From Ridgeia piscesae (Eukaryota; Annelida; Polychaeta; Sabellida; Siboglinidae), in contig JAODUO010000183.1 in assembly GCA_025642075.2 (NCBI GenBank), positions 238,501 to 302,500 on the forward strand: a stretch of DNA of 64,000 nt, given 5' to 3'. The notes under the pieces were generated by a model that did not search any database, was not told the origin of the DNA, and saw only the letters and a program-made list of their open reading frames with translations. Positions 8,478 through 64,000 of the stretch are shown here, piece by piece. A program made the translations under genes and the position numbers. The first letter of the stretch is position 1, and every line of letters starts with the position of its first letter.

Positions 8478-10021
8478 GCATTTATAAAGAAGCACTTAAT
8501 CAAGCTACAGCTGAAATTAGAAATTCAAAGAGAAGCTACGAACAAAAAATTGCTTTTAATATAAAACATGACAGCAAGAGTTTTTATGCGTATGTTCGAA
8601 GTAAACAGAAAGTTCAGGATAAGGTCGGTCCTCTAGAAGGTAGTGATGGAAACATAATAACAGAGGGATTCTTAATGGCAGAAAACCTAAATGAGTACTT
8701 TAGTTCGGTGTTTACCAGGGAAGATATTAGTATATTACCAGTACTTGAGACTAAGTTCGAAGGGAGAGAGTTTGACTATTTAGGACAACTAATTGTAACC
8801 CCAACAATGGTAGCTATGAAAATAAGAGATATGAAAGATAATAAATCACCTGGAGTGGATGGGATTCCTCCCAAATTACTATTGGAAATTGTAGAACAAA
8901 TCAACATACCGCTTGCAACAGTGTTCAATTTGTCATTAGAGGAGGGAATCGTTCCGTTAGAATGGAAAGAAGCGAACATTATACCATTACTTAAAAAAGG
9001 TTCGAGAAACAAGTCAGAGAACTATAGACCAGTGAGTTTAACATCAGTGATTTGCAAACTAATAGAAAGACTAATTAAAGATCACATGGTTGATTTTCTT
9101 GTTAAAAATAAATTGATAAACCCATCTCAACATGGGTTTTTAAAAGCGAGGTCATGCTTAACAAATATGTTATGTTTTTTGGAAGATGTCACAAAGTGGG
9201 TAGATGAGGGATCACCAGTAGATATAATCTATTTGGATTTTAAAAAAGCCTTTGACAAAGTGCCACACCAAAGACTACTACTTAAACTAAAGGCTCATGG
9301 CATAGGAAATGGAATGATCAACTGGATAAAAAATGGCTTATTGATAGAAGACAAAGAGTAGTAGTTGATGGGGAGGTTTCAAACTGGAAATCGGTTTTGA
9401 GTGGAGTACCGCAGGGATCAGTACTGGAACCTATTTTATTCTTAATATATATCAATGATTTGGATGATGACATAACAAGCAAGGTGTTGAATTTTGGCGG
9501 ACGACACAAAAGTGTTTAGGAAAATTAAAAGTGATGCAGAAAAGACAGCATTTACAAGATGATCTTAATAAGTTGATAGAATGGTCTGAGAAGTGGCAAA
9601 TGCTTTTTAAATTTTTTGGAAAGTGTAAGTGCCTCCACACAGGACATGGGAATGAAGATGCAAAATATACAATGGGTGGTACTGTACTAAATACTCCCTT
9701 TAAAAAGGAAAAGGACTTAGGGTTAACTATTAGTGCTGACATGAAGGTATCGGGAACAGTGTGGAATTGCAGCAGCGAAGGGAAACCAAATTCTTGGTTT
9801 AAATTTAAGGCGAAATATAGTGTACAAAGAAAAAAAACCCAATAATACCGCTGTATAAAACAATAGTTAGACCTCCCCTTAGAATTTGTATACAAGCATG
9901 GGGGCCCAATATCGAAAGAAGGATATTGATATGCTAAAAAGAGTACAAAGGAGAACAACCAAAATGATAAAAAACTCGGGAATATTAGTTATGAAATGCG
10001 TCTAAAAGAATGGGTTTAAAG
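8478..10021 (+). pseudogene. LINE A reverse transcriptase, 5'-truncated, broken
   Basis: Encodes the linker and RT domain of a non-LTR retrotransposon. The longest intact frame (8675-9361) contains KDNKSPGVDGIPPKLL, ENYRPVSLTSVICKLIE and motif A in IYLDFKKAFDKVPHQ. A frameshift near 9345 precedes motif B (SGVPQGSVL-type, here GVPQGSVLEP) and motif C (the FADDT region at ~9490, shifted by one base). The C-terminal part continues at 9531-9845 (KCLHTGHGNEDAKYTMGGT) and to ~10000. Several frameshifts and truncation make it non-functional. The family resembles proteins usually annotated as jockey-like or CR1-like pol. I do not assign a clade firmly. Confidence 0.85.
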
Positions 10022-18075: not shown

Positions 18076-18836
18076 CCAACAGCTGTTGGTAAGCCTCTTA
18101 AAATTGAGGATGAATTACCTGTTTCGGGATATCGCTTATCAGCTGAATGTTTCAGTGGGTACAGTCCAGCGGGTTTTCCACTATACACTAAATGCCCTGT
18201 ATGTGGAACTGGATTTCCTGATCCAGTGGCCTTCGCGAGATAATCTCAGGAAATCAATGCCAATGTGCTTTCGCAAAGAGTTTGGCAACAAGGTTGTTGT
18301 GATCATTGATTGCTTTGAGTTATTCACCGAGAAGCCCAGCGGTGCTATGAACACAGTATTAACATACTCTAACTATAAACACCACCAGACCGTAAAGTAC
18401 CTCATCGGCATTGCCCCTCAGGGATCAGTGACGTTCATTGCAAAGGGTTGGGGGGTCGCACTTCTGATAAACACATTGTTCAGAAGTCTGGCATCCTGTC
18501 AAACTTACTACCTGGCGACATCATTATGGCAGACAGTTCAAAATAGAGGAGGATGCCGCTTTCTACCAAGCCAAGTTGGTAATTCCCGATTTTACCAGGG
18601 ATAAAAAGCAGCTGCACCCGCTTGAGGTTGAAAACACTAGAAAGATTGCCAATGTACGCATACATGTAGAGCGAGTGATTGGGTTAGTGGTAAGGAAATT
18701 CAGGATTTTCGAAACAGAAATTCCCCTGGAATTTCTTAAACTCCGCCAAGGCGAGTCTGTCCCCACCATCGATAAGATAGTCCGGGTATGCTGTTGCCTG
18801 ACCTGTCTGTGCCCATCTGTTGTTCCATTTGATTAA
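18076..18836 (+). pseudogene. ISL2EU transposase, exon 2 part B (DDE_Tnp_4 catalytic domain)
   Basis: Continues in frame from 8477: codons from 18077 read QQLLVSLLKLRMNY and then the HTH RDIAYQLNVSVGTVQRVF. The catalytic domain follows: VVVIIDCFELF (first Asp), the hallmark SNYKHHQTVKYLIGI, a GWGGRTSDKH block reached only after a frameshift in the GGGGGG run near 18447, GDIIMAD (second Asp), and a small deletion/frameshift near 18534 in the DRGF motif. It ends with IANVRIHVERVIG (catalytic Glu). All three catalytic acids survive, so decay is modest. TAA stop near 18834. AATAAA near 19070 could serve as its poly(A) signal. Confidence 0.85.
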
Positions 18837-19310: not shown

Positions 19311-21563
19311 CTACACATTTACTACATTTACTACAGTGCCACGTTTCATTTTTATACATTTCACATGAAACCACTGTGTGGCACAGTGATCATTGTCACA
19401 GCAGATCATTCTGCTGCCATCATCAACTCCTCTGCATATGCAGTACTGTTCCACATTTACAGTACACATTCTGTTGGCATTATTGTTACTCGCAAGCACA
19501 TATTTCTTTGAAAAATACTTGACACACAATTCTGGCATCACACATTTTGCATGCAAACTCTGTGCAACATCAGCTGTGTTCTGCCAGATGTCCTCATCAG
19601 CATATAACCGTTCTACAAGAAAGGTACAGGGCCCCCAGATGACAAAATTACAATAGCTTCTGCCCGTTAAAACATCTGCATTTGAATCTGGTAAAAATAC
19701 CTGTTGGACCGGTCTAACCGGTACTGACCACTGACAGCTGTCAGACACGACACATCACACAAGTCTCCGTGTTTTAGTATAAACGGACATTTAATTTCTA
19801 AGCAGCCTAGTCACAACATTTACACTCTACGAGTTCATCTGGACTTGCTCCAAACATAGGGTAGTCTGAGCTCAGGACTAGCCCACAGTCAACATTTTCA
19901 TGTTGAGAGAGAGCCTGGGCCATGTACTGTTTGCGACCGACCTCCTCATGTTGAGTACCCCAGTCTGTTGCTTGTGATGTGAATTTCATGTGTGTGGGTG
20001 TGCAGATGCGTTTGAGTAGTGAAATGGATGGTTTCTGCATGGATGTGTGGCATGCTGCATGGAAGTTGGAGGCTGTCACCCTGCCTGCCCGCATCTTAAA
20101 CCACAATGGGTTCATGGCCTGCTGCTTCGTCTGACTCAACACAAACCTGACCTGTTCTGCACAGACTGACACATCTAAACTAGCACAGTACGTTACCACA
20201 TCCTCATATGAGGCCAACTGCAGCGTGGCGTCATACAGTGTACCCAGAGCTTTGGGCAACTGGCCAATGATAGTCTTCGGTATGAAGTTTGCACTGTACT
20301 TATCAGTCAGTGACAAGACTGCAGCATTCGGCAAAGCCTTGTGAAGTGCATCAAAAAATGCTGCACATGCGTCTGGACCATGGAGGCCAGTAACATCAGG
20401 CTGTGTAGTCGCGGCTAAAGGAGGGGTCACTGTACCATCCAGTTGTAGTTTCCGTTTCTTTGATGCTGACCGAAAGTCCATTTCACATATCCGCTGGAAT
20501 GGTGTGCTGAACTTGGCTGCAGTCGGGAAGAGCCAGTAAGCTGGTACATCCGTCACGGACGCCTCCTTGCTGACACGTGAACCATGCTCCAGGGCGAAGA
20601 GTACGGCTGCGATGTGACTACATCCTTCGCTCAGGCCTGCCATACACGTGCAGTGGGCTGACTGCACAGTGCCATCACAGCTCCCGATAACCCAGGCCTC
20701 CAGAGGTTTATCGTTCACTCTTATTGAATGAGTGACCTGAAATAATATGCATAATAAATATTTATTACAGGCATGGCTGAACAATTATCTTCAAGAATAT
20801 GATTCGAGTGAATAAAAAAATTATTTTTAGTACTACCATGTTAAGCAAGTCTGAAAATGAAAGCCATACATGGTTTAATGTTTGTATGATTATTTGTCAG
20901 TGATCTACATTACACATGGAACTGGCACCTTCCAAACAAGAAGAAAATTTAAAGACAATATACAAGATGGAACAGAACCTTATAGATATCCCACTAGACT
21001 ACTATATCCAACACAAAGAATGGAATTATCTACCTCCAAGCACTGTCTCAAGCAAATTACTAAACTCATTTCATAATAATTTAATCCACCATTTTAACAA
21101 CTATGTCAGACGACCCACCATGCGAGCTAGCGTGATGTGTCCATAGCCATAGGCATAGGTGACAAATCTGGGATATTTTGCGAGTTAACAATAGAGATAC
21201 AGAAATAACAACACAATTTATAATAATAATTTTAATGAATACCTTTGCACGAAATATATGAAGTTCTCCGATCACTTTGTGAAGGATTTGCCGTATCCAT
21301 CCATCCTGGAAGAGCTTGTACGCCGCTAGCGACTTATACTTTTTAAGTTCTTCCTTGGTATAGGCCGACTGACTGAAGATCAGGTAGTTCACTACATCGA
21401 TGTATGCGACGTCCGGCCATTTTGACACGTTGCCATCAAATTCATTTGCCGGCACATCGTACGGATCGACACTGATGCATTCTATTTTGCGATCGTATCG
21501 TAAACGTACATCTGGGGGCAAGGACTCTCGATAAGCAAGCGTCCAAGCGAAGACATCGATCAA
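19311..21563 (-). pseudogene. ISL2EU second gene: SWIM zinc finger, YqaJ nuclease, PHD finger
   Basis: Exon 1 (21563-21243) encodes the typical start of these proteins (WPDVAYIDVVNYLIFSQSAY, then YKSLAAYKLFQDGW). No ATG is in frame, so the start is damaged or in a short shifted frame (ATG near 21577 out of frame). Intron 21242-20737 has GT and AG ends in phase 0. Exon 2 continues with a SWIM motif (CTCMAGLSEGCSH), then YqaJ motifs GRVTASNF, WGTQHEEVGRKQYM and ASPDELVE (catalytic Asp). A stop at 19807 is bypassed by a frameshift into GCLEIKCPF (catalytic ExK), and a second frameshift near 19690 leads to YCNFVIWGPCTFLVERL and a PHD finger (YCICRG ... CCDNDHCATQWFHVKC), ending at 19311. YqaJ is a lambda-exonuclease-like fold thought to process DNA during transposition. 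Two frameshifts make this a pseudogene. Confidence 0.85.
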
Positions 21564-25688: not shown

Positions 25689-26755
25689 ATAATAATAATA
25701 ACAATAACAATAACAATAACAGTGGCAGTGGCAGTGGCAGTGGCAGTGGCAGTGGCAGTGGCAGTGGCAGTGGCAGTGGCAGTGGCAGTGGCAGTGGCAG
25801 TGGCAGTGGCAGTGGCAGTGGCAGTGGCAGTGGCAGTGGCAGTGGCAGTGGCAGTGGCAGTGGCAGTGGCGTGGCGGTGGCGTGGCAGTGGCGTGGCGTG
25901 GCAGTGGCGTGGCAGTGGCAGGTGGCAGTGGCATGGCAGTGGCAGTGGCAGTGGCAGTCGTGGCAGTGGCAGTGGCAGTGGCAGTGGCAGTGGCAGTGGC
26001 AGTGGCAGTGGCAGTGGCAGTGGCGTGCAGTGGCAGTGGCAGTGGCAGTGGCAGTGGCAGTGGCAGTGGCGGTGGCAGTGGCAGTGGCAGTGGCAGTGGC
26101 AGTGGCAGGGGGCAGTGGCAGTGGCAGTGGCAGTGGCAGTGGCAGTGGCAGTGGCAGTGGCAGTGGCAGTGGCAGTGGCGTGGCAGTGGCTGGCAGTGGC
26201 AGTGGTGGCAGTGGCGTGGCGTGGCAGTGGCGTGGCAGTGGCGTGGCGTGGCAGTGGCGTGGCGTGGCGGTGGCGTGGCGTGGCGTGGCGTGGCGTGGCG
26301 TGGCAGTGGCAGTGGCAGTGGCAGTGGCAGTGGCAGTGGCAGTGGCAGTGGCAGTGGCAGTGGCAGTGGCAGTGGCAGTGGCAGTGGCAGTGGCAGTGGC
26401 AGTGGCAGTGGCAGTGGCAGTGGCAGTGGCAGTGTGGCAGTGGCGTGGCAGTGGCAGTGGCAGTGGCAGTGGCAGTGGCAGTGGCAGTGGCAGTGGCAGT
26501 GGCAGTGGCAGTGGCAGTGGCAGTGGCAGTGGCAGTGGCAGTGGCAGTGGCAGTGGCAGTGGCAGTGGCAGTGGCAGTGGCAGTGGCAGTGGCAGTGGCA
26601 GTGGCAATGGCAATGGCAATGGCAATGGCAATGGCAATGGCAATAGCAATAGCAATAGCAATAGCAATAGCAATAGCAATAGCAATAGCAATAGCAATAG
26701 CAATAGCAATAGCAATAGCAATAGCAATAGCAATAGCAATAACAGCAATAACAGC

Positions 26756-33109: not shown

Positions 33110-33525
33110 ATCAAACTAGGGTTTCCTACTAAAACGCTTGCTTGTTTTTAATAACAGTGGCACCTAATCGAAAAATAATTTTATGTATGTAGCTGTTATG
33201 CTTATTACTTTATCTGTTATATATTATATAAATTAATCAGATATGCTAAATGTTGTTTACAATCTTGTTGAAAGCTAGATTACCCTATTTTACCCACTAT
33301 AAATAATAGTCTGCACAAACTAAGGTTTCCTACAAAAAAAACTGGTTTATTTTTAATAACAATGATACCTATTAAAACTATTTTTTTACATATGTAGTTG
33401 TTACTCTTGTTGCTTTATCTCTTATATACTATATCAAATAAACAGATTTGCTCAATCTTGTTTACAATTTGTTGAAGGCTAGATTACCCTAGTATCACCT
33501 ACTACACTAATCTGTTCAAACATAC
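33110..33525 (-). repeat. two ~205-bp tandem units upstream of LINE ORF1
   Basis: AACTA(G/A)GGTTTCCTAC occurs at 33113 and 33319. The following ~200 bp align through TTTTTAATAACA(G/A)TG, TTTATCT(G/C)TTATATA and GCTAGATTACCCTA. The position directly upstream of ORF1 suggests LINE 5' untranslated-region monomers, but this is inference. Confidence 0.6.
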
Positions 33526-41109: not shown

Positions 41110-42925
41110 CGCGGTCAAATTGAGATGCTGCGTTTGGCAAATGCATTTACTGGTGGAGATAATGGACACTCTAGCTAACCGTATGAATGAATGCTTCGTG
41201 TCGATCAGTGAAGACTTGCCAAGACTACGAGCTACACACCCCATCTTTGACATTAAAGAACCACTGCCAGCTGAATTCACCATTAATGTGAGTGACACTA
41301 AGTTGGCACTTGATAACATCAAAGTGAACAAAGCTACGGGTCCGGACAGAATACCCCCATGGGCGTTGAAGGAGTGTTCACACCTTCTTGCAGCACCGGT
41401 AACTGGTATATTTAATAGTTCTCTTAGGGAAGGTGTACTGCCAACACTATGGAAGACGGCAACTGTTATTCCTTTGTCAAAGAAACATCCTCCAGTTTCT
41501 ATTGATAGTGACATAAGACCGATATCACTTACACCAATTATAGCTAAGGTGTTTGAATCACTAGTGGTAAAATTGATGACAAGCAGTATGAAGGAATGGC
41601 AGGGACTTGTACCACGGATGCTCTTGTTGAAATGCTCCACAAATGGTATGAAAGCACCGTTGTAACGGGTAATTTGGTAAGAGTGCTTTTTCTTGATTAT
41701 AGCAAAGCATTTGATCTGATTAACCACGATATACTGTTAAACAAAATGGTTGGAATGGAAGTACCTGCCCATCTGGTTCGATGGATGGCAGCGTTCTTAC
41801 TAGATCGCGAACACAGAGTAAAAGTCGGCGACGCTGTATCAAAACCAGGATATCCCAATGGGGGCGTTTCCCAGGGGACTTTATCAGGGCCAAAACACTT
41901 CTTAGTCCATATCAATGATTTGCAAACGCCATGTCCTATTTATAAGTATGTTGACGACAGCACTATATTTGAAATATGCAACCAAGACATGGTATCTGTT
42001 ATCCAGGATTCTGCTGACGTGGTTGAGCAATGGTCTTATAATAATGACATGCGTATCAATACGACTAAGACCAAAGAAATGGTTATATGTTTCAGAAGAG
42101 ACAGAACATTTGTATATTCTCTGCCATATATTTATATGAATGGAAATTATATTGAAAGAGTGTCTCAAGCAAAGGTTCTCGGTGTAAATATATCATCTGA
42201 CTTAAGTTGGAATGCACATGTAGATGAAATAATTTCAAAGGCAAGAACGAGAGTGTACATGATTTATCAACTGAAACGTGCTGGTATCAACAAAAATGAT
42301 TTGATTAGAATTTATGTATATGTAATTAGACCCGTAGTCGAATATGCGTGCCCTGTATGGCATACGAACTTACCTAAATACTTATCGGACAATATAGAAA
42401 TAATTAAAAAAGGTGTCTCAAAACTATATTTCCAGGTTATCAGTACGAAAATATCCTGCAGATGGTCAACCTGCCGACGTTGCACCTCAGACGCGATGAA
42501 TTGTGTAGAGCGTATTTCGCTAAAATGGAGAGTAGGGATCACAAACTGAATGCGTTAGTACCAAATGGTCGAAGTGTGCCATATGCCTTGAGATTGTGTA
42601 ACAAGTTACCTATCCCAAGGGCAAACACTAATCCCTACAACAATTCCTTAATTCCGTGGTCTTTAGAGCATTTTCAGATAGGTTAGTAATGTACATGCAT
42701 TTTAACAGACAATTTAATTTGATTTATCTTTTTATTTATTTTATTTTATAACAATGTTTATGTAAAGTATATCTTAATGTACATGTTTTACATTTATTAC
42801 GTAGGTTTCCAATGATGATTTTAATTTTTAACAAGATATGTTAACATTGTACATTTATATGAAGTATGAATGTACATGTACAATCCAACTGTAAAGTTGC
42901 CACATAATAAAATTTATCTTATTAC
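41110..42925 (+). pseudogene. LINE B: non-LTR retrotransposon RT to 3' end
   Basis: 41162-41590 encodes the region before the RT palm (ALDNIKVNKATGPDRIPPWA, SDIRPISLTPIIAKVFES). After a frameshift near 41600, a long frame 41596-42430 carries motif A (FLDYSKAFDLINHDILL), motif B (GVSQGTLSGPKHFLVHIND) and motif C YKYVDDSTIFE. The thumb follows (VLGVNISSDLSWNAHVDEI, RPVVEYACPVWH). Another frameshift near 42425 leads to the terminal LHLRRDELCRAYFAKME and IPWSLEHFQIG (stop 42684). The 3' region ends with an AATAAAATTTATCTTATTAC tail. 5'-truncated. The YVDD core and most of the palm are intact, so it is a fairly young copy. Lineage distinct from LINE A and D. Confidence 0.85.
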
Positions 42926-43170
42926 AAAAGTGGGCTCAATGTCATCGTGGCTTGTATGACTACAGCAAGCAGGATGTGTTCTTCCCAGGGACTGTCCAAG
43001 TTAAGTTACATCGCCCCGACAATGCCTCACCAGAGTTTTTCCTAATTTATAACGGCTCCTCACACAAAGCTTGACCATTTCACGGCAGTGAATGCGTCAT
43101 GCAGGCGCTGGTCAGAGTAGGACGCCATTGTGGTTTTTCGTTTATATTTCTGAAACATATCTGCAAGGTA
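42926..43170. other. short unique stretch
   Basis: No gene recognised. Confidence 0.4.
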
Positions 43171-44160
43171 CGTCACATGGCGAAGTAGTGACGGTTGCTG
43201 TATGAGTAGTGTTCGAAGAGTAAGACCTGAGGGACACGTGGTACGTCACATGGCGGTAGTAGTGACAGTTGCTGTATGAGTAGTGTTCTAAGAGTAAGAC
43301 CTGAGAGACACGTGGTACGTCACATGGCGAAGTAGTGACAGTTGCTGTATGAGTAGTGTTCTAACAGTAAGACCTGAGGGACACGTGGTACGTCACATGA
43401 CGGTAGTAGTGACAGTTGCTGTATGAGTAGTGTTCTAACAGTAAGACCTGAGGGACACGTGGTACGTCACATGACGGTAGTAGTGACAGTTGCTGTATGA
43501 GTAGTGTTCTAACAGTAAGACCTGAGGGACACGTGGTACGTCACATGACGGTAGTAGTGACAGTTGCTGTATGAGTTGTGTTCTAAGAGTAAGACCTGAG
43601 AGACACGTGGTACGTCACATGGCGGTAGTAGTGACAGTTGCTGTATGAGTAGTGTTCTAAGAGTAAGACCTGAGGGACACGTGGTACGTCACATGGCGGT
43701 AGTAGTGACAGTTGCTGTATGAGTTGTGTTCTAAGAGTAAGACCTGAGAGACACGTGGTACGTCACATGGCGGTAGTAGTGACAGTTGCTGTATGAGTTG
43801 TGTTCTAAGAGTAAGACCTGAGAGACACGTGGTACGTCACATGGCGGTAGTAGTGACAGTTGCTGTATGAGTTGTGTTCTAAGAGTAAGACCTGAGGGAC
43901 ACGTGGTACGTCACATGGCGGTAGTAGTGACAGTTGCTGTATGAGTAGTGTTCTAAGAGTAAGACCTGAGAGACACGTGGTACGTCACATGGCGGTAGTA
44001 GTGACAGTTGCTGTATGAGTAGTGTTCTAAGAGTAAGACCTGAGAGACACGTGGTACGTCACATGGCGGTAGTAGTGACAGTTGCTGTATGAGTAGTGTT
44101 CTAAGAGTAAGACCTGAGGGACACGTGGTACGTCACATGGCGGCAGTAGTGTCAGTTTCT
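43171..44160 (+). repeat. 74-bp minisatellite, ~13 copies
   Basis: Units start CGTCACATGGCGGTAGTAGT and end GGACACGTGGTA. Spacing is 74 bp (73 in copies with GCGAAG). Copies differ at few positions (AGTAG/AGTTG, GAGGG/GAGAG). Each unit contains CACGTG and an adjacent TACGTCA. Confidence 0.95.
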
Positions 44161-44172
44161 TGATGAGAAGTG

Positions 44173-44304
<132 letters not shown>

Positions 44305-45844: not shown

Positions 45845-47200
45845 CAGATCAGACCTGACAGGGTTTGACACGATGAGACATGACAGGGGGTTGACACGAC
45901 CGGACCTGACAGGGTGTTGACACGACCACACCTGACAGGGGGTTGACACGACCAGACCTGACAGGGGATTGACACGACCACACCAGATAGGGGGTTGACA
46001 CGACCCAACCTGACAGGGGGTTGACACGACCAGACCTGACAGGAGGTTGACACGACCAGACCTGACAGGGGTTTTTCACGACCAGACCTGACAGGGGGTT
46101 AAACAACCAGACCTGACATGGGATTGACACGACCAAACCTGAAAGGCGGTTGACAAAACCAGACCTGACAGGAGTTTGACACGACCAAACCTGATAGAGG
46201 TTGACACGACCAGACCTGACAGAGGTTGACACGACCATACCTGACTTGGGGTTGACACGACCAAACCTGACAGGGGGTTGACACGACCAGACCTGACAGG
46301 GGGTTGACACGACCAGACCTGACAGGGAGTTGACACGACCAACCTGACTAGGGGGTTGACACGACCAACCTGACAGGGGGTTGACACGACCAGACCTGAC
46401 AGGGGGTTGACACGACCAGACCTGACAGGGGTTGACACAGACCAGACCTGACAGGGGGTTGACACGACCAAACCTGAAAGGGAGTTGACACAACCAAACC
46501 TGACAGGGGGTTGACACGACCACACCTGACAGGGGATTGACACAACCAAACCTGACAGGGGGTTGACACGACCAGACCTGACAGGGGTTGACACGATCAC
46601 ACCTGACTGGGGGTTGACACGACCAGACCTGACTGGGGGTTGACACGACCAGACCTGACAGGGGGTTGACACGATCAGACCTGATAGGGGGTTGACACGA
46701 CCAATCTGACTGTGGTTGACACGACCCAACCTGACAGGGGGTTGACACGACCAGACCTGACAGGAGGTTGACACGACCAGACCTGACAGAGGTTGACACG
46801 ACCAGACCTGACTGGGGGTTGACACGACCACACCTGACAGGGGATTGACACAACCAAATCTGACAGGGGGTTGACACGACCAGACCTGACAGGGGTTGAC
46901 ACGATCAGACCTGATGGGGGTTGACACGACCAGACCTGACTGGGGGTTGACACGACCAGACCTGACAGGGGTTGACACAACCAGACCTGACAGGGGTTTG
47001 ACACGACCAAACCTGATAGAGGTTGACACGACCAGACCTGACAGGGGGTTGACACGACCAGACCTGACAGGGGTTGACACGACCAGACCTGACAGGGGTT
47101 GACACGACCAGACCTGAAGGGGGTTGACACGACCAGACCTGACAGGGGTTGACAACCAGACCTGACAGGGGGTTGACACGACCAGACCTGACAGGGGATT
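45845..47200 (+). repeat. 26-bp minisatellite, ~50 copies
   Basis: Unit GACCTGACAGGGGGTTGACA followed by CGACCA, with variants of the G run (3-5) and T/A changes. Because 26 is not a multiple of 3 and the unit has no stop on the minus strand, long minus frames (up to 400 codons) arise. They are artefacts. Confidence 0.95.
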
Positions 47201-47447
47201 GAAGACAGACCTACAGGAGGGCACGACAGCCTGAATGCACACACTAACGGCGTCAAACCACTGCAGTGGACTACACACAGACCCGCCAGAGGGGGACAGG
47301 CCACATCAACACTACACTAAACTAAATATTTTGGGACCAATTTATCAAAGCAACATCAACATACATATAAGTATTGAAGAAATACTCAAAGTAAATCAAC
47401 AGTTTTTGTTCTGGTTTAAGAAATCCAACAAGTAACGAAGGGCAAAG

Positions 47448-51506: not shown

Positions 51507-54500
51507 AGTACTACTAGAACTATTACTAATACTAATACTAATACTAATACTAATACTAATACTAATACTAATTATAATACTAATACTAATATTACTACAA
51601 ATAAAATAAATAATAATAATAATAACAATACTAATTAGTATTATTACCTTCCCCACCTTAGGTAAGTGGTCTTACTTGTGGCTCCTCCTGGCGGTAATAT
51701 CCGTTGTCACACTCACACACGGGGAGCTTTGTCTTGGTCCGGTGTGTGAGTACACGTTTGCGGTACGTCGTACGCGCACAATGACCTACGCATCCGGAAG
51801 TCACGTGTTCAACGTCGGTCTGAACGGAAGCAAGTTGCAAGTTATTGAAAACGCATACAGGTATGTCAAGATAGTGCGAACTGCCGCCTAGTTTAGTATA
51901 TAATAATAATAATTATTATTATTATTATTAATATATAATAATAATAATAATACAATAAAAACGTAACGTAGAACAGTGTCCATCTGATGCCAAATATTAT
52001 TAAATGTTTACTAACTACTAAAACGTAAGTGATACAATTAAAGGTAAAAAAAAGTCTAAACGTCATTAAACAGAAATATACCAAACAAAATAAAACAAAC
52101 AAATTAAAAGGACAATTGTAATGCAATATTACCAGCAGCTGTTATGTGTCAGTTTCTGACGAGTAGCCGGCAAAATCAGTTATTATATTGACCATAAAGA
52201 ATAAAATGAGGATGTTTTGCCAGGAAGAAGGAACGTTATCCTGATGTCATCGGGCGATTTGTGAACGCAAGTGACGTCATCACGGCGGATGGATTCAGCC
52301 GCAACGTGATCGTCATCAACGAACAGTTCCCCGGACCAACGATAGAGGTGATGGAAGGGGTACAGGTATGTGGTGTTTGGTGATGATAGAGATGACGGAA
52401 TGTGTATATGTACGTCGCGTTTGTGTGATGATAGAGATGATGGAAGGTATGTAGGTACGTGGTGTTTGTGTGATGATAGAGATTATGGAAGGTATGTATC
52501 TACGTGGTGTTTGTGTGATGATAGAAATGCTGGAAGGTATGTATGTACGTGGCGTTTGTGTGATGATAGAGATGATGGAAGGTATGTATGTACGTGGTGT
52601 TTGTGTGATGATAGAAATGCTGGAAGGTATATGTATGTACTTGGCGTTTGTGTGATGATAGAGATGATGGAAGGTATGTAGGTACGTGGTGTTTGTGTGA
52701 TGATAGAGATGACTGAAGGTATGTATGTACGTGGTGTTTGTGTGATGATAGATATGATGGAAGGTATGTGTGTACGTGGTGTATGTGTGATGATAGAGAT
52801 CATGGAAGGTATGTATGTACGTGGTGTTTGTGTGATGATAGCGATGATGGAAGGTATGTATGTACGTGGTGTTTGTGTGATAATAGAGATGATGGAAGGT
52901 ATCTATGTACGTGGTGTTTGTGTGATGATAGCGACGCTGGAAGGTATGTATGTACGTGGTGTTTGTGTGATGATAGATATGATGGAAGGTATGTATGTAC
53001 GTGGTGTATGTGTGAAGATAGAGATCATGGAAGGTATGTATGTACGTGGTTTTGTGTGATTATAACGATGATGGAAGGAATGTATGTACGTGGTGTTTGT
53101 GTGATGATAGAGATGATGGAAGGTATCTATGTACGTGGTGTTTGTGTGATGATAGCGATGATGGAAGGTATGTATGTTCGTGGTGTATGTGTGATGATAG
53201 AGATGATAGAAGGTATCTATGTACGTGGTGTTTGCGTGATGATAGCGTTGATGGAAGGTATGTATGTACGTGGTGTTTCTGTGATGATAGAGATGATGGA
53301 AGGTATGTATGTACGTGGTGTTTGTGTGATGATAGAGATGGTGGAAGGCATGTATGTACGTGGTGTTTGTGAGATGATAGAGATGATGGAAGGTATGTAT
53401 CTACGTGGTGTTTGTGTGATGATAGAGATGACGGAAGGTATGTAGATACGTGGTGTTTGTGTGATGACAGAAATGATGGAAGGTATGTAAGTACGTGGTG
53501 TTTGTGTGATGATAGAGATGATGGAAGGTATGTATGTACGTGGTGTTTGTGTGATGATAGAGATGCTGGAAGGTATGTATGTACGTGGTGTTTGTGTGAT
53601 GATAGATATGATGGAAGGTATGTATGTACGTGGTGTATGTGTGATGATAGAGATCATGGAAGGTATGTATGTACGTGGTGTTTGTGTGATGATAGCGATG
53701 ATGGAAGGTATGTATGTACGTGGTGTTTGTGTGATGATAGAGATGATGGAAGGTATCTATGTACGTGGTGTTTGTGTGATGATAGCGATGCTGGAAGGTA
53801 TGTATGTACGTGGTGTTTGTGTGATGATAGATATGATGGAAGGTATGTATGTACGTGGTGTATGTGTGATGATAGAGATCATGGAAAGTATGTATGTACG
53901 TGGTTTTGTGTGATGATAACGATGATGGAAGGTATGTATGTACGTGGTGTTTGTGTGATGATAGAGATGATGGAAGGTATCTATGTACGTGGTGTTTGTG
54001 TGATGATAGCGATGATGGAAGGTATGTATGTACGTGGTGTATGTGTGATGATAGAGATGATGGAAGTTATCTATGTACGTGGTGTTTGCGTGATGATAGC
54101 GATGATGGAAGGTATGTATGTACGTTGTGTTTCCGTGATGATAGAGATGATGGAAGGTATGTATGTACGTGGTGTTTGTGTGGTGATAGAGATGGTGGAA
54201 GGCATGTATGTCCGTGGTGTTTGTGTGATGAGAGAGATGATGGAAGGTATGTATCTACGTGGTGTTTGTGTGATGATAGAGATGATGGAAGGTATGTATG
54301 TACGTGGTGTTTGTGTGATGATAGAAATGATGAAGGTATGTATGTACGTGGTGTTTGTGTGATGATAGAGATGATGGAAGGTATGTATGTACGTGGTGTT
54401 TGTGTGATGATAGAGATGATGGAAGGTATGTATGTACGTGGTGTTTGTGTGATGATAGAGATGACGGATGGTATGTATGTATGTGGTGTTTGTGTGATGA

Positions 54501-57500
54501 TAGAGATGCTGGAAGGTATGTATGTACGTGGTGTTTCTGTGATGATAGAGATGATGGAAGGTATGTATGTACGTGGTGTTTGTGTGGTGCTAGAGATGGT
54601 GGAAGGCATGTATGTCCGTGGTGTTTGTGTGATGAGAGAGATGATGGAAGGTATGTATCTACGTGGTGTTTGTGTGATGATAGAAATGATGAAGGTATGT
54701 ATGTACGTGGTGTTTGTGTGATGATAGAGATGATGGAAGGTATGTATGTACGTGGTGTTTGTGTGATGATAGAGACGATGGAAGGTATGTATGTACGTGG
54801 TGTTTGTGTGATGATAGAGATGATGGAAGGTATGTATGTACGTGGTGTTTGTGTGATGATAGAGATGACGGATGGTATGTATGTATGTGGTGTTTGTGTG
54901 GTGATAGAGATGCTGGAAGGTATGTATGTACTTGGTGTTTGTGTGATGATAGATATGATGGAAGGTATGTATGCAGGTGGTGTATGTGTGAGGATAGAGA
55001 TCAGGGAAGGTATGTATGTACGTGGTGTTTGTGTGATGATAGCCATGATGGAAGGTATCTATGTACGTGGTGTTTGTGTGATGATAGCGATGCTGGAAGG
55101 TATGTATGTACGTGGTGTATGTGTGATGATAGAGATCATGGAAGGTATGTATGTACGTGGTTTTGTGTGATGATAACGATGATGGAAGGTATGTATGTAC
55201 GTGGTGTTTGTGTGATGATAGAGATGACGGATGGTATGTATGTATGTGGTGTTTGTGTGATGATAGAGATGCTGGAAGGTATGTATGTACGTGGTGTTTG
55301 TGTGATGATAGATATGATGGAAGGTATGTATGTAGGTGGTGTATGTGTGATGATAGAGATCAGGGAAGGTATGTATGTACGTGGTGTTTGTGTGATGATA
55401 GCCATGATGGAAGGTATGTATGTACGTGGTGTTTGTGTGATAATAGAGATGATGGAAGGTATCTATGTACGTGGTGTTTGTTTGATGATAGCGATGCTGG
55501 AAGGTATGTATGTACGTGGTGTTTGTGTGATGATAGATATGATGGAAGGTATGTATGTACGAGGTGTATGTGTGTTTGATAGAGATCATGGAAGGTATGT
55601 ATGTACGTGGTTTTGTGTGATGATAACGATGATGGAAGGTATGTATGTACGTGGTGTTTGTGTGATGATAGAGATTGTGGAAGGTATCGATGTACGTGGT
55701 GTTTGCGTGATGATAGCGATGATGGAAGGTATGTATGTACGTGGTGTTTCTGTGATGATAGAGATGATGGAAGGTATGTATGTACGTGGTGTTTGTGTGG
55801 TGATAGAGATGGTGGAAGGCATGTATGTCCGTGGTCTTTGTGTGATGAGAGAGATGATGGAAGGTATGTATCTACGTGGTGTTTGTGTGATGATAGAGAT
55901 GACGGAAGGTATGTAGGTACGTGGTGTTTGTGTGATGATAGAAATGATGGAAGGTATGTATGTACGTGGTGTTTGTGTGATGATAGCGATGATGGAAGGT
56001 ATGTATGTACGTGGTGTTTGTGTGATGATAGAGATGATGGAAGGTATCTATGTACGTGGTGTTTGTGTGATGATAGCGATGATGGAAGGTATGTATGTAC
56101 GTGGTGTTTGTGTGATGATAGAGATGATGGAAGTATCTATGTACGTGGTGTTTGCGTGATGATAGCGATGATGGAAGGTATGTATGTACGTGGTGTTTCT
56201 GTGATGATAGAGATGATGGAAGGTATGTATGTACGTGGTGTTTGTGTGGTGATAGAGATGGTGGAAGGCATGTATGTCCGTGGTCTTTGTGTGATGAGAG
56301 AGATGATGGAAGGTATGTATCTACGTGGTGTTTGTGTGATGATAGAGATGACGGAAGGTATGTAGGTACGTGGTGTTTGTGTGATGATAGAAATGATGGG
56401 AAAGGGATGTATGTACGTGGTGTTTGTGTGATGATAGAAATGATGGAAGGTATGAATGTACGTGGTGTTTGTGTGATATTTGAGACGATGGAAGGTATGT
56501 ATGTACGTGGTGTTTGTGTGATGATAGAGACGACGGAAGGTATGTATGTACGTGGTGTTTGTGAGATGATAGAGATGATGGAAGGTATGTATCTACGTGG
56601 TGTTTCTGTGATGATAGAGATGACGGAAGGTATGTATGTACCTGGTGTTTGTGTGATGATAGAGATGATGGAAGGCATGTATGTACCCTGGTGTATTTTG
56701 TGATGATAGAGATGATGGAAGGTATGTATGTACGTGGTGTTTGTGTGATGATAGAAATGATGGGAAAGGGATGTATGTACGTGGTGTTTCTGTGATGATA
56801 GAGATGATGGAAGGTATGTATGTACGTGGTGTTTGTGTGATGATAGAGATGGTGGAAGGCATGTATGTACGTGGTGTTTGTGTGATGAGAGAGATGATGG
56901 AAGGTATGTATCTACGTGGTGTTTGTGTGATGATAGATATGATGGAAGGTATGTATGTACGTGGTGTATGTGTGATGATAGAGATCATGGAAAGTATGTA
57001 TGTACGTGGTTTTGTGTGATGATAGCGATGATGGAAGGTATGTATGTACGTGGTGTTTGTGTGATGATAGAGATGATGGAAGGTATCTATGTACGTGGTG
57101 TTTGTGTGATGATAGCGATGATGGAAGGTATGTATGTACGTGGTGTATGTGTGATGATAGAGATGATGGAAGTTATCTATGTACGTGGTGTTTGCGTGAT
57201 GATAGCGATGATGGAAGGTATGTATGTACGTTGTGTTTCCGTGATGATAGAGATGATGGAAGGTATGTATGTACGTGGTGTTTGTGTGGTGATAGAGATG
57301 GTGGAAGGCATGTATGTCCGTGGTGTTTGTGTGATGAGAGAGATGATGGAAGGTATGTATCTACGTGGTGTTTGTGTGATGATAGAGATGATGGAAGGTA
57401 TGTATGTACGTGGTGTTTGTGTGATGATAGAAATGATGAAGGTATGTATGTACGTGGTGTTTGTGTGATGATAGAGATGATGGAAGGTATGTATGTACGT

Positions 57501-60500
57501 GGTGTTTGTGTGAGATAGAGATCAGGGAAGGTATGTATGTACGTGGTGTTTGTGTGATGATAGAGATGACGGATGGTATGTATGTATGTGGTGTTTGTGT
57601 GATGATAGAGATGCTGGAAGGTATGTATGTACGTGGTGTTTGTGTGATGATAGAGATGATGGAAGGTATGTATGTACGTGGTGTTTGTGTGATGATAGAG
57701 ATGATGGAAGGTATGTATGTACGTGGTGTTTGTGTGATGATAGAGATGATGGAAGGTATGTATGTACGTGGTGTTTGTGTGATGATAGAAATGATGAAGG
57801 TATGTATGTACGTGGTGTTTGTGTGATGATAGAGATGATGGAAGGTATGTATGTACGTGGTGTTTGTGTGATGATAGAGACGATGGAAGGTATGTATGTA
57901 CGTGGTGTTTGTGTGATGATAGAGATGATGGAAGGTATGTATGTACGTGGTGTTTGTGTGATGATAGAGATGACGGATGGTATGTATGTATGTGGTGTTT
58001 GTGTGGTGATAGAGATGCTGGAAGGTATGTATGTACTTGGTGTTTGTGTGATGATAGATATGATGGAAGGTATGTATGCAGGTGGTGTATGTGTGAGGAT
58101 AGAGATCAGGGAAGGTATGTATGTACGTGGTGTTTGTGTGATGATAGCCATGATGGAAGGTATCTATGTACGTGGTGTTTGTGTGATGATAGAGATCATG
58201 GAAGGTATGTATGTACGTGGTTTTGTGTGATGATAACGATGATGGAAGGTATGTATGTACGTGGTGTTTGTGTGATGATAGAGATGACGGATGGTATGTA
58301 TGTATGTGGTGTTTGTGTGATGATAGAGATGCTGGAAGGTATGTATGTACGTGGTGTTTGTGTGATGATAGATATGACGGATGGTATGTATGTATGTGGT
58401 GTTTGTGTGGTGATAGAGATCAGGGAAGGTATGTATGTACGTGGTGTTTGTGTGATGATAGCCATGATGGAAGGTATGTATGTACGTGGTGTTTGTGTGA
58501 TAATAGAGATGATGGAAGGTATCTATGTACGTGGTGTTTGTTTGATGATAGCGATGCTGGAAGGTATGTATGTACGTGGTGTTTGTGTGATGATAGATAT
58601 GATGGAAGGTATGTATGTACGAGGTGTATGTGTGTTTGATAGAGATCATGGAAGGTATGTATGTACGTGGTTTTGTGTGATGATAACGATGATGGAAGGT
58701 ATGTATGTACGTGGTGTTTGTGTGATGATAGAGATTGTGGAAGGTATCGATGTACGTGGTGTTTGCGTGATGATAGCGATGATGGAAGGTATGTATGTAC
58801 GTGGTGTTTCTGTGATGATAGAGATGATGGAAGGTATGTATGTACGTGGTGTTTGTGTGGTGATAGAGATGGTGGAAGGCATGTATGTCCGTGGTCTTTG
58901 TGTGATGAGAGAGATGATGGAAGGTATGTATCTACGTGGTGTTTGTGTGATGATAGAGATGACGGAAGGTGTGTAGGTACGTGGTGTTTGTGTGATGATA
59001 GAAATGATGGAAGGTATGTATGTACGTGGTGTTTGTGTGATGATAGAAATGATGGAAGGTATGAATGTACGTGGTGTTTGTGTGATATTAGAGATGATGG
59101 AAGGTATGTATGTACGTGGTGTTTGTGTGATGATAGAGACGATGGAAGGTATGTATGTACGTGGTGTTTGTGAGATGATAGAGATGATGGAAGGTATGTA
59201 TCTACGTGGTGTTTGTGTGATGATAGAGATGACGGAAGGTATGTATGTACCTGGTGTTTGTGTGATGATAGATATGATGGAAGGTATGTATGTACGTGGT
59301 GTATGTGTGATGATAGAGATGATGGAAGGTATCTATGTACGTGGTGTTTGCGTGATGATAGCGATGATGGAAGGTATGTATGTACGTGGTGTTTCTGTGA
59401 TGATAGAGATGATGGAAGGTATGTATGTACGTGGTGTTTGTGTGATGATAGAGATGGTGGAAGGCATGTATGTACGTGGTGTTTGTGTGATGAGAGAGAT
59501 GATGGAAGGTATGTATCTACGTGGTGTTTGTGTGATGATAGAGATGACGGAAGGTATGTAGGTACGTGGTGTTTGTGTGATGATAGAGATGATGGAAGGT
59601 ATGTATGTACGTGGTGTTTGTGTGATGATAGAGATGATGGAAGGTATGTATGTACGTGGTGTTTGTGTGATGATAGAGATGACGGAAGGTATGTATGTAC
59701 GTGGTGTTTGTGTGATGATAGAGATGATGGAAGGTATGTATGTACGTGGTGTTTGTGTGATGATAGAGATGATGGAAGTTATGTATGTACGTGGTGTTTG
59801 TGTGATGATAGAGATGATGGAAGGTATGTATGTACGTGGCGTATGTGTGATGATAGCGATGATGGAAGGTATGTATGTACGTGGTGTTTGTGTGATGATA
59901 GAGATAATAGAAGGTGTGTATGTACGTGGCGTTTGTGTGATGATAGCGATGATGGAAGGTATGTATATACGTGGTGTTTGTGTGATGATAGATATGATGG
60001 AAGGTATGTATGTACGTGGTGCTTGTGTGATGATAGAGGTGATGGAAGGTATGTATGTACGTAGCGTTTGTGTGATGATAGACATGATGGAAGATATATA
60101 TGTACGTGGTGTTTGTGTGATGATAGAGATGATGGAAGGCATGTAGGTGCGTGGCGTTTGTGTGACGATAGAATTAACGGAATGTATGTATGTACGTGGC
60201 GTTTGTGTGATGATAGAGATGATGTAATGTATGTATGTACGTGGTGTTTGTGTGATGATAGAGATGATGGAAGGCATGTAGGTACGTGGCGTTTGTGTGA
60301 TGATAGAGATGAAGGAAAGCATGTAGTTACGTGGCGTTTGTGTGACGATAGAGGTGACGGAATGTGTGTAGGTATGTGGCGTTTGTGTGATGATAGAGAT
60401 GATGGAAGTTATGTAGGTACTTGCCATTTGTGTGATGATAGAAATGATGGAAGGTATGTGGTGTTTGTGCGACGATAGATGTGACGGAAGCTGTACAGGT

Positions 60501-62967
60501 ACGTGGCGTTTGAGTGACGATAGATGTGACTGAATATGTGTACTTACGTGGCGTTTGTGTGATGATAGAGATGATGGAAGGTATGTATGTACATGGTGTT
60601 TGTGTGATAATAGAGATGATGGAAGGTATCTATGTACGTGGTGTTGGTGTGATGATAGCGATGGTGGAAGGTATGTATGTACGTGGTGTTTGTGTGATGC
60701 TAGATATGATGGAAGGTATGTATGTACGTGGTGTTTGTGTGATGATAGATATGATGGAAGGTATGTATGTACGTGGTGTATGTGTGATGATAGAGATCAT
60801 GGAAGGTATGTATGTACGTGGTGTTTGTGTGATGATAGCGCTGATGGAAGGTATGTATGTACGTGGTGTTTGTGTGATGATAGAGATGATGGAAGGTATC
60901 TATGTACGTGGTGTTTGTGTGATGATAGCGATGCTGGAAGGTATGTATGTACGTGGTGTTTGTGTGATGATAGAGATGATGGAAGTTAAGTATGTACGTG
61001 GTGTTTGTGTGATGATAGAGATGATGTAATGTATGTATGTACGTGGTGTTTGTGTGATGATAGACATGATGGAAGGCATGTAGGTACGTGGCGTTTGTGT
61101 GATGATAGAGATGATGGAAGGTATGTGTGAACGTGGAGTTTGTGTGATGATAGACATGATGTAATGTATGTATGTACGTGGTGTTTGTGTGATGATAGAC
61201 ATGATGGAAGGCATGTAGGTACGTGGCGTTTGTGTGATGATAGAGATGAGGGAAAGCATGTAGTTACGTGGAGTTTGTGTGAGGATAGAGATGATGGAAG
61301 GTATGTGTGAACGTGGCGTTTGTGTGATGATAGACATGATGTAATGTATGTATGTACGTGGTGTTTGTGTGATGATAGACATGATGGAAAGCATGTAGTT
61401 ACGTGGTGTTTGTGTGAGGATAGAGATGATGGAAGGTATGTGTGAACGTGGCGTTTGTGTGATGATAGACATGATGTAACGTATGTATGTACGTGGTGTT
61501 TGTGTGATGATAGACATGATGGAAGGCATGTAGTTACGTGGCGTTTGTGTGATGATAGAGATGAGGGATAGCATGTAGTTACGTGGAGTTTGTGTGACGA
61601 TAGAGGTGACGGAATGTGTGTAGGTATGTGGCGTTTGTGTGATGATAGAGATGATGGAAGTTATGTAGCTACTTGGCATTTGTGTGATGATAGAGATATT
61701 GGAAGGTATGTGGTGTTTGTGCGACGATACAGGTGACGGAAGCTGTACAGGTACGTGGCGTTTGAGTGACGATAGATGTGACGGAATATGTGTTGTTACG
61801 TGGCGTTTGTGTGATGATAGAGATGATGGAAGGTATTTAGGTACGTGGCGTTTGTGTGATGATAGAGATGATGGAAGGTACGTGGCGTTTGAGGAACGAT
61901 AGAGGTGACGGAAGGTGTATATGTACGTTGCGTATGTGTGGCGATAGAGGTATAGGAAAGTGTATATACGTACGTGGCGTTTGTGTGGCGATAGAGGTGA
62001 CGGAAGGTATGTTGTTATGTGGCGTTTGTGTGATGATAGAGATGATGGAAGGTATTTAGGTACGTGGTGTTTGTGCGACGATAGAGGTGACGGAAGCTGT
62101 ACAGGTACGTGGCGTTTGTGTGACGATAGAAGTGACGGAAGCTGTACAGGTACGTGGCGTTTGTGTGATGATAGAGGTGACGGAAGCTGTGCAGCTACGT
62201 TGTGTTTATTTATCGATAGAAATGATGGAATTTGTGCAGTCATGTGGTGTTTGTGTGATTGTAAGGATAACGAAGGTGTAAAGAGACGTGCTGTATGTGA
62301 TTTTAACAAAATATAAAATAATCATTAAGACTACCATCTACAACAAACATCCTTCTGATTGATACACAAGGTAACCGAAAGTACAATTGTTCTGTAAATA
62401 CGGAAACTGGCCAATTGGATGTTGGTTATCGTCAGTCTGCAGAGACTGTTTTGTTTCGTCTTCACGCCTTTGTTTTTTTTTTCTCAAGATTTCGGCGAAA
62501 GAGAACATTTATAATATGTGTTATGTTATATTGTTGCAGTGTTGTCCAGCCACACATACGCTCCACTGTCGTGTTGTTTCTCCCTAGAGAAATACAAGAA
62601 TAAGTAGTTAACATCAAACTAAATAAATACGACACCCAGAGATACGTTGGAAGAATTCAGGTTACATTTATCATGCGCAGTCGGACAACTGACACGAATG
62701 AAGATACCGCTACATTTGATTGGTCTAGGTTGTTGTTCACGTGACTAATCACCTACTCCTGGAGGGCACCACTGTACACTTCCATGGAATGCACCAGAAG
62801 GGCACGCCGTGGATGGACGGGGTGGGGTACATCACCCAGTGTCCCATTCCTCCCAGACAGACATTCACCTATCGCTTCGAAGCGCGCCCTGGCGGCACGC
62901 ACTGGTACCATGCACACTTCGAAAACCAACGAATTGACGGGTTGTATGGGATGATTATCGTGCACAG
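50130..62967 (+). CDS. laccase-type multicopper oxidase, 5' four exons (gene continues past window)
   Basis: Joined exons 50130-50160, 51662-51860, 52224-52365 and 62729-62967 give 203 codons in one frame (phases 1, 2, 0, 2), all with GT-AG introns. Residues 1-31 form a signal peptide: basic GKW, then SYLWLLLAVISVVTLTHG. Residues 32-76 contain ELCLGPVCEY and a beta-rich stretch. The first cupredoxin domain (Cu-oxidase_3) runs through ITADGFSRNVIVINEQFPGP, EVMEGVQVVVHVTNHL, TVHFHGMHQKGTPWMDGV, RQTFTYRF and GGTHWYHAHF. His141/143 and His185/187 are two of the four HxH copper-ligand pairs. The family oxidises phenols or metals with O2 reduction and acts extracellularly. Domains 2-3 lie beyond the window. 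Intron 3 is ~10.4 kb of minisatellite. Confident about family, not about substrate. Confidence 0.88.
51209..51630. repeat. (TAC)n/(TAATAC)n/(TAA)n microsatellite in intron 1
   Basis: Trinucleotide tract, ending ~30 bp before exon 2 with a short pyrimidine-rich acceptor (TTACCTTCCCCACCTTAG). Confidence 0.95.
51662..51860 (+). CDS. multicopper oxidase exon 2
   Basis: Acceptor TTAG at 51658-51661 is immediately followed by GTAAGTGG, a donor-like exon start. The exon encodes the hydrophobic core of the signal peptide and the N-terminal segment to ENAY. Donor GTATGT at 51861, phase 2. Confidence 0.85.
51900..51955. repeat. (AAT)n/(ATT)n inverted microsatellite in intron 2
   Basis: AATAATAAT followed by ATTATTATT and again AATAATAAT. 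Can fold back on itself. Confidence 0.85.
52224..52365 (+). CDS. multicopper oxidase exon 3
   Basis: Acceptor TTTTGCCAG at 52215-52223. Completes Arg77, then encodes 47 residues from KKERYPDVIGRF to PTIEVMEGVQ. Donor is CAG|GTATGT at 52365/52366, phase 0. The exon's last ~27 bases recur, modified, in every unit of the following minisatellite. Confidence 0.9.
52366..62290 (+). repeat. ~45-bp minisatellite filling intron 3, ~220 copies
   Basis: Typical interior unit: GATGATAGAGATGATGGAAG, then GTATGTATGTACGTGGTGTTTGTGT. The period is 45 bp, with a few indel units (TACGTGGTTTTGTG). It is open in several frames because 45 is divisible by 3, giving apparent proteins of 15-residue repeats (CDDRDDGRYVCTWCL, MIEMMEGMYVRGVCV and minus-strand forms). 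These are not genes: the array is intronic, and the exon frame stops at 52381. Units near the right end (62076-62190) read GTGACGGAAGCTGTACAGGT, closer to the exon 3/intron junction than the interior units are. Confidence 0.97.
62291..62728. other. 3' part of intron 3
   Basis: Unique sequence with a T-rich run at ~62468. No clear polypyrimidine tract directly before the acceptor (TTGATTGGTCTAG). Confidence 0.5.
62729..62967 (+). CDS. multicopper oxidase exon 4
   Basis: Acceptor AG at 62727-62728, an in-frame TAG just before it, then VVVHVTNHLLLEGTTVHFHG. Carries both HxH motifs (HFH and HWYHAH) and DGLYGMIIVH. Donor GTAAAC at 62968, phase 2. Confidence 0.92.
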
Positions 62968-63195
62968 GTAAACGGTCGTTCAGTGATGATGACTGAGACA
63001 TATGTGGACTTCTACGGTAGTATTCATAAAACCTGAAAATGTTTGAACTATAGCAGGGGTTTCTCTCATCTTATATTGCCTGGTGTCACCGCTATAAGCT
63101 GGTCGTTCCACATTCAACCACATTCGTTGAAGGGTGACTTCTCTTTTATGAAGGCGTTTTACTGTAGACTGTTGATGCATTCACTTGATGGAAGG

Positions 63196-63500
<305 letters not shown>

Positions 63501-63659
63501 TGGTGTGGTTTTTGCCTGTGCGTCGTTCAGTTTTGGTTGCGGTTCTGTTTTTGCTGTTGTATGTTGTTGTTGTCTGTTCGTATTTCCCATTGCTTTAATG
63601 CATGTACTGTGGTACTCCGTCGAGTTGTCTGTCTGTCTGTGGTCTCTTTGTGGTCGGAT

Positions 63660-64000
63660 AGTGTGGCGTGTGCTTTGCGGCGGCGGGCGGTGTGGCTGGG
63701 GCGGGGGGGCGTGTGCCGGGGGTGGCGCGCGGGCGGGGGCGTGGCGGTGCGGGGTGCGGGCGGGCGGGCGCGGGTGCGGGGGCGGGTGGCGGTGCGTGGC
63801 GGGCGGGGGGCGGGCGGTGCGGGCGTCGGGCGGGCGTGGCGTGTGCGGGCGTGTGCGTGTGCGTGTGCGTGTGCGTGTGCGTGTGCGTGTGCGTGTGCGT
63901 GTGCGTGTGCGTGTGTGTGTGTGTGTGGCGTGGGTGGGGGCGGGCGTGTGTGTGTGCGTGTGGTGTGGTGTGTGGTGGCGGTGCGTGGGGTGTGGTTGTG
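63660..64000 (+). repeat. GC-rich (GGGCG/GTGTGC) low-complexity end
   Basis: G-rich words GGCGGGCG and (GTGTGC)n at 63840-63912 to the window edge. Nearly C-poor in long stretches. Could form G-quadruplexes or reflect poor consensus. Confidence 0.85.

Follow-up and report, generated by a model that had tools for sequence, protein, structure and literature searches.

The laccase (multicopper oxidase) gene of the tubeworm Ridgeia piscesae contains, between exons 3 and 4, an intron made up almost entirely of a 45-bp minisatellite that begins inside exon 3 and carries many sequences resembling a 5' splice site. The locus raises two questions, namely from what the array arose, and how the true donor is chosen in the presence of so many near-equal sites. 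The window referred to below is the whole stretch of DNA that was analysed, 64,000 nucleotides of contig JAODUO010000183.1. The laccase gene lies on its + strand, and the predicted exons 2-4 form a single open frame that encodes a Cu-oxidase_3 domain (PF07732, E = 1.2e-43). The exons and the intron are arranged as follows.

51662-51860, + strand: predicted laccase exon 2 (signal peptide region), an open frame joined to exon 3 in phase 2.
52224-52365, + strand: laccase exon 3, ending ...GPTIEVMEGVQ; the exonic half of array unit 0 consists of the exon's final 25 bp.
52366-62728, + strand: the exon 3/exon 4 intron, 10,363 bp, phase 0.
62729-62967, + strand: laccase exon 4 (VVVHVTNHLLLEGTTVHFHGMHQ...IIVHR), with a donor at 62968.

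The start of exon 2 was set at a CCTTAG acceptor and is predicted only. The giant intron consists of 9,934 bp of array and a 429-bp tail outside the array, and it is bounded by ACAG/GTATGT at the end of exon 3 (52365) and by TCTAG/GTTGTTGTTCAC at the start of exon 4 (62729), where the slash marks the boundary. Across the exon 3/exon 4 join the predicted protein reads ...TIEVMEGVQ/VVVHVTNHLL..., and the Lamellibrachia satsuma protein P0094, which was 86% identical over 99% of the query, carries the same residues across the join without interruption. The 60 residues at the end of exon 4 were 100% identical to the start of the R. piscesae database protein P0189. The first residue of P0189 is a methionine inside exon 4, and the P0189 model therefore lacks the exons 5' of the giant intron. 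The published Ridgeia assembly is reported to have a contig N50 of 10.4 kb (PMC9921365), which may be why P0189 begins in exon 4.

Tandem Repeats Finder counted 221 copies of the 45-bp unit between 52341 and 62259, with the left end inside exon 3, and a wraparound alignment gave 222 units at 52341-62299 with a mean identity to the consensus of 93.6%. Both results agree with an earlier note on this DNA, made from the letters alone, which had put the expansion at about 220-fold. The unit is exactly 45 bp long in 197 of the 222 cases, and 119 distinct unit sequences were found. The main parts of the array are these.

52341-62299, + strand: minisatellite of 222 units of 45 bp across the exon 3/intron boundary (Tandem Repeats Finder, wraparound alignment).
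52341-52384, + strand: unit 0, the true exon/intron junction, in which the final 25 bp of exon 3 run into 19 bp of intron.
53826-60031, + strand: a block of about 69 units present in two adjacent copies, 53826-56931 and 56932-60031.
61898-62299, + strand: right-edge units 213-221, diverged; units 217 and 218 keep an exon-like TGTACAG/GTACGT.

The relationships among units were judged by distances and nearest neighbours rather than by a per-unit phylogeny, because 45-bp units contain little signal. Units 12-169 differed from their nearest neighbours by a mean of 0.27 bases; the corresponding difference was 7 bases for unit 0, 5 for unit 1, and up to 17 at the right edge, the maximum being that of the last unit. 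Interior units are homogenised, and the edge units are excluded from this homogenisation. The two halves of the internal duplication, of about 3.1 kb each, agreed at 97.2% of 3,054 aligned bases, and their alignment contained 98 gap columns. This duplication shows one growth step of the array and suggests past length instability. Units 181 and 209 are duplicates, being part of a block that recurs 28 units further on. Open frames of up to 400 aa on the + strand and 469 aa on the - strand lie within 52738-62309; these are long because 45 is divisible by three, and they are taken as mechanical and not as genes.

The near-identity of the duplicated halves is also what would be expected if the array were real and its length were an assembly product, arising from haplotypes or from a repeat that was collapsed or doubled, and the microsatellite-rich parts of the window do look hard to assemble. 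We nevertheless regard this as improbable, as the halves differ by the gap columns given above, the best offset between them shifts along the block (69, 68 and 58 units), and the 222 units comprise 119 distinct sequences.

The origin of the array was assessed by comparing the last 25 bp of exon 3 with the exonic half of the units. Right-edge unit 217 matched the exon at 22 of 25 positions, a score of 19 that none of 1000 shuffles, and none of 1000 25-mers from other parts of the window, attained. The interior consensus scored 13, which no shuffle out of 1000 attained but 3 of 1000 window 25-mers did; because of these three, it is the edge units that prove the exon origin. The same three window 25-mers are what can be said for a chance resemblance, in which an unrelated satellite adjoins the exon and happens to match it. 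That reading has next to no probability, given that unit 217 was equalled in neither control and that the units keep the register of the exon, inside which the array begins; the shuffle and window controls refute it to the extent that a single genome can. The earlier note had proposed setting the units against the junction and against shuffled sequence, and unit 217 stands well beyond the latter. At least 21 of the 25 exon positions are matched by six units (181, 209, 213, 217, 218 and 219), all among the last 41. The mean number of matches was 18.0 of 25 for units 1-221, 17.9 for units 200-209 and 16.5 for units 220-221. The right edge is thus not exon-like throughout; exon-like units are few and are confined to the right side. 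The motif TGTACAG/GTACGTGG, said earlier to persist at the edge, is present in four units (181, 209, 217 and 218).

The direction of copying is given by the protein. The end of exon 3 encodes TIEVMEG; 3 of 19 other aligned proteins have exactly this sequence, and further ones have close variants of it. Lamellibrachia P0094 carries an identical TIEVMEGVQVVVHVTN. Exon 3 therefore codes for laccase sequence common to relatives, which makes the exon the source and the array the derived copy. The reverse, an array that had overwritten the exon, was rejected on the same residues. The register of unit 0, the controls for unit 217 and the laccase residues of relatives give good support to the proposal that the array came from this gene's exon 3/intron junction.

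A junction-spanning duplication can also be read as the birth of the intron itself. Under the AGGT model of Rogers, coding sequence across the exon 3/exon 4 join would have been tandemly duplicated, and the intronic half of the unit would be a degenerate copy of the first bases of exon 4. The coding join, ...CAG/GTT, is a proto-splice site, 12-13 bases can be aligned between the intronic half of the unit and exon 4, and the 26 bp before exon 4 matched the end of exon 3 with a score reached by 28 of 1000 shuffles (uncorrected, one of several tests). Intron gain from a boundary tandem duplication has been described in potato, where a single duplication in an RdRp gene created a new intron (PMC4974935), and has been proposed for amphioxus globins (PMC3087553). 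The potato case resembles the laccase gene in its duplication across an intron-exon boundary; it differs in that laccase gave a negative result when intron gain was tested on the donor side. On the donor side the similarity to exon 4 was ordinary: the scores of unit 217, unit 0 and the consensus were attained by 305, 106 and 305 of 1000 shuffles, respectively, and by 248, 124 and 246 of 1000 other GT sites in the window. In addition, 429 bp of non-array sequence separate the array from exon 4. An AGGT duplication that would have placed a copy of the beginning of exon 4 at the 5' end of the intron was rejected on these shuffle counts, and intron birth is accordingly held to be very unlikely.

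Donors were scored by log-odds and by pairing with the U1 5' end, using donor frequencies and a U1 sequence of vertebrate type, and on this scale the real donor, CAG/GTATGT at 52366 inside unit 0, had the top log-odds among all 1680 GTs of the intron. On the same scale the exon 2 donor, CAG/GTATGT at 51861, scored 5.65 and the exon 4 donor 3.55. Near-equal decoys, defined as sites within 0.5 bit of the real donor, numbered 144, every one of them in the array, and this count takes the place of the roughly 200 decoys claimed earlier. None of the 29 GTs in the 429-bp tail came within 0.5 bit, only three near-equal sites were found on the + strand of the 52.2 kb upstream, and 30 Markov-1 sequences of the array's composition gave a mean of 9.7. 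By U1 pairing energy, two other sites equalled or beat the real donor (-9.4 kcal/mol); the energies were -9.0 for CAG/GTACGT, -8.7 for AAG/GTATGT and -2.3 for TAT/GTACGT. The features immediately downstream of the real donor are as follows.

52381-52383, + strand: in-frame TGA that terminates exon 3 read-through upstream of the first decoy.
52447-52452, + strand: the first strong decoy, AAG/GTATGT, 81 nt past the real donor, with unit 1 in between carrying no strong decoy.

The decoys are mostly not the inherited donor. AAG/GTATGT was found in 138 of the 222 units, and CAG/GTACGT accounts for four more decoys. In a column-by-column alignment, the position homologous to the true donor reads TAT/GTACGT in 137 units, and AAG/GTATGT lies 8 nt upstream of it. 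CAG/GTACGT stands at the inherited position only in the four units that carry the edge motif, and forms such as TGTATAT and TGTGTAG, in units 1, 178, 206 and 213, look transitional. On this alignment the interior decoys are newly formed donors, and the inherited donor has decayed. The idea that each interior unit retains GAAG/GTATGT from the junction consequently fails twice, in the number of units that have the motif and in its position, which is not homologous to the true donor.

Read-through from exon 3 adds the peptide VCGVW and then meets the TGA. The stop follows at once because unit 0 is one base shorter than the 45-bp unit. The earlier note had held that the exon reading frame is preserved in the unit; the unit consensus is indeed open in the exon frame, but exon 3 read-through itself stops at 52381-52383. 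Judged from the reading frame, this TGA would be present in any transcript that is extended to a decoy or keeps the intron, and transcripts of this kind would probably be destroyed. Exonisation from within the array was also considered. A cassette-exon search found at least 10 pyrimidines in the 15 bases upstream for one of the 630 array AGs on the + strand, a weak negative because the true acceptor itself has only 9 of 15. A repeat-peptide query, consisting of one 400-residue stretch in two frames, gave no match at E<=0.001 among 53 candidate database proteins.

These donors might have a function. Decoys could be used or could bind U1, and unproductive splicing or intron retention would then tune laccase output by copy number. 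The 144 near-equal donors of this one intron score above the exon 4 donor, and every use of a decoy runs through an in-frame stop. The human IFI6 (6-16) gene has a minisatellite of about 26 copies of a 12-bp unit. Two downstream units of that repeat are reported as used donors, giving three mRNAs (Turri 1995, cited in PMC4526556). IFI6 thus resembles the laccase gene in having a minisatellite that supplies multiple splice donors; it differs in that its repeat donors are reported to be used, whereas the laccase decoys are predicted from sequence and read-through stops at once. Against a function, constraint on the decoy columns was not seen in a set of 108 distinct aligned units from units 1-211, a set that excludes unit 0 and units 212-221: the decoy columns ranked 40 of 45 in conservation, and 87% of randomly drawn sets of 7 columns were at least as conserved. 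The decoy columns being unconserved, there is no sign of selection for the decoys. The unit next to unit 0 lacks a strong decoy, and the repeat peptide was absent from the candidate proteins. A functional array is accordingly considered unlikely. A more specific version, to which we give slightly less credence again, is a donor ladder, in which a fraction of laccase pre-mRNA would be spliced from the 144 decoys and destroyed, so that array length would set output and would vary between individuals.

RNA folding was examined as a further means by which the true donor might be distinguished. The median predicted openness was 0.019 for decoys versus 0.035 for the real donor, 18 of 138 decoys had a higher predicted accessibility than the real donor, and 42 of 99 arrays in which the unit flanks had been shuffled were at least as closed. 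Selective structural masking of the decoys was therefore rejected, the decoys being barely less open than the real donor and many flank-shuffled arrays their equal. The four edge CAG/GTACGT decoys were predicted to be strongly paired and are too few to build on. The array RNA as a whole (52341-62299) is predicted to form a long, near-continuous hairpin. Four consensus units folded at -45.3 kcal/mol; none of 100 mononucleotide shuffles of the unit folded as stably, and 3 of 200 dinucleotide shuffles did. The fold of unit 217 was reached by 3 of 200 dinucleotide shuffles, and the exon junction unit was ordinary (29 of 200).

Arrays of this kind are known from amphioxus, where they are called mirages and have been described for the globins BflGb6 and BflGb9, Adh3, TnC and PGBD5 (PMC3087553, PMC3902484), the second of these papers adding PGBD5 and mentioning troponin C. 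Their units are 10-160 bp long and few in number, with 6 and 3 units in the two haplotypes of BflGb6 and 2-7 in PGBD5, and the authors suggest that regular splicing is undisturbed (PMC3087553, PMC3902484). As in these mirages, the laccase array is a minisatellite-like tandem duplication over an exon-intron boundary with AG/GT signals in many units, and as in BflGb6, units at the boundary escape homogenisation. By every feature tested, namely the boundary-spanning unit, the splice signals and the unhomogenised edge, the laccase array is a mirage. It departs from the few-copy mirages of a chordate in belonging to an annelid, in having 222 units and in the shift of the strong donor by 8 nt. A boundary array is thus not a new phenomenon, the amphioxus mirages and the human IFI6 donor minisatellite having already been published; what is new is the size of the array, the relocated donor and, as far as the literature was searched, the phylum. 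A splice-junction-derived array in an annelid was not found in that search, a weak negative as it covered open-licence papers only. Human paralogues in recent segmental duplications have internal tandem repeats at exon-intron boundaries (mean 30-bp units, four copies), which share the boundary location of the laccase array, alter splicing and can form new introns (PMC2812944). Within annelids, the introns of earthworm metallothionein genes contain tandem arrays with mean monomers of 178-181 bp, and their derivation from a splice junction is not described in the available text of that report (PMC12783039).

Taken with the homology and donor counts above, the array is best explained as a neutral, runaway mirage, a tolerated by-product in which the true donor is chosen as the first and strongest site; we place the probability of this reading at roughly 0.78. 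Points against it are the small number of exon-like units and their restriction to the right side, the three window 25-mers that equal the interior consensus, the decoys predicted to be more accessible than the real donor, and the two sites that pair with U1 at least as well. In the tubeworm lineage, a 45-bp segment, with 25 bp from the end of exon 3 and 20 bp from the start of the intron, would have been duplicated in tandem. Slippage or unequal exchange, including the duplication of about 69 units, may then have carried the array to 222 units, so that the intron, perhaps 450 bp long at first, reached 10.4 kb. Interior units would have been homogenised, while some right-edge units probably escaped with the ancestral TGTACAG/GTACGT junction. 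In the interior, the original donor would have decayed and the strong AAG/GTATGT would have arisen 8 nt upstream and been spread by homogenisation. The true donor would normally be used because it is both the 5'-most and the strongest site; occasional use of a decoy would yield a premature-stop transcript, and the array is probably tolerated rather than a selected device.

The locus is a natural experiment in 5' splice-site choice, with 144 near-equal competitors placed mostly in 45-bp steps, the nearest of them 81 nt from the true donor. Almost exclusive use of the true donor would mean that position and exon context outweigh a large excess of near-equal sites; without such use, the locus would be a copy-number-dependent switch. 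The findings further suggest that boundary minisatellites occur beyond amphioxus, can reach great size, lengthen introns and perhaps break gene models.

The window contains no N, and Rfam and tRNA scans of it gave no hits. Fragments of mobile elements were found on the + strand, namely reverse transcriptase (PF00078) at 8675-9358 and 41596-42546 and a DDE_Tnp_4/HTH_Tnp_4 transposase at 18086-18601; an open reading frame on the - strand at 19810-20784, similar to YqaJ/viral alkaline exonuclease, is perhaps also derived from a mobile element. Long hexanucleotide arrays (CCTACA, CAGTGG, GCAATA) occupy 1-1530 and 25720-26741, and a 205-bp unit is present as a tandem pair at 33112-33491. Directly past exon 4, at 63197-64000, lies a low-complexity stretch that is TG-rich and then very GC-rich, and is possibly hard to assemble. 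Two more minisatellites lie upstream of exon 2, at 43167-44174 (13.6 copies of 74 bp) and at 45850-47217 (53.5 copies of 26 bp).
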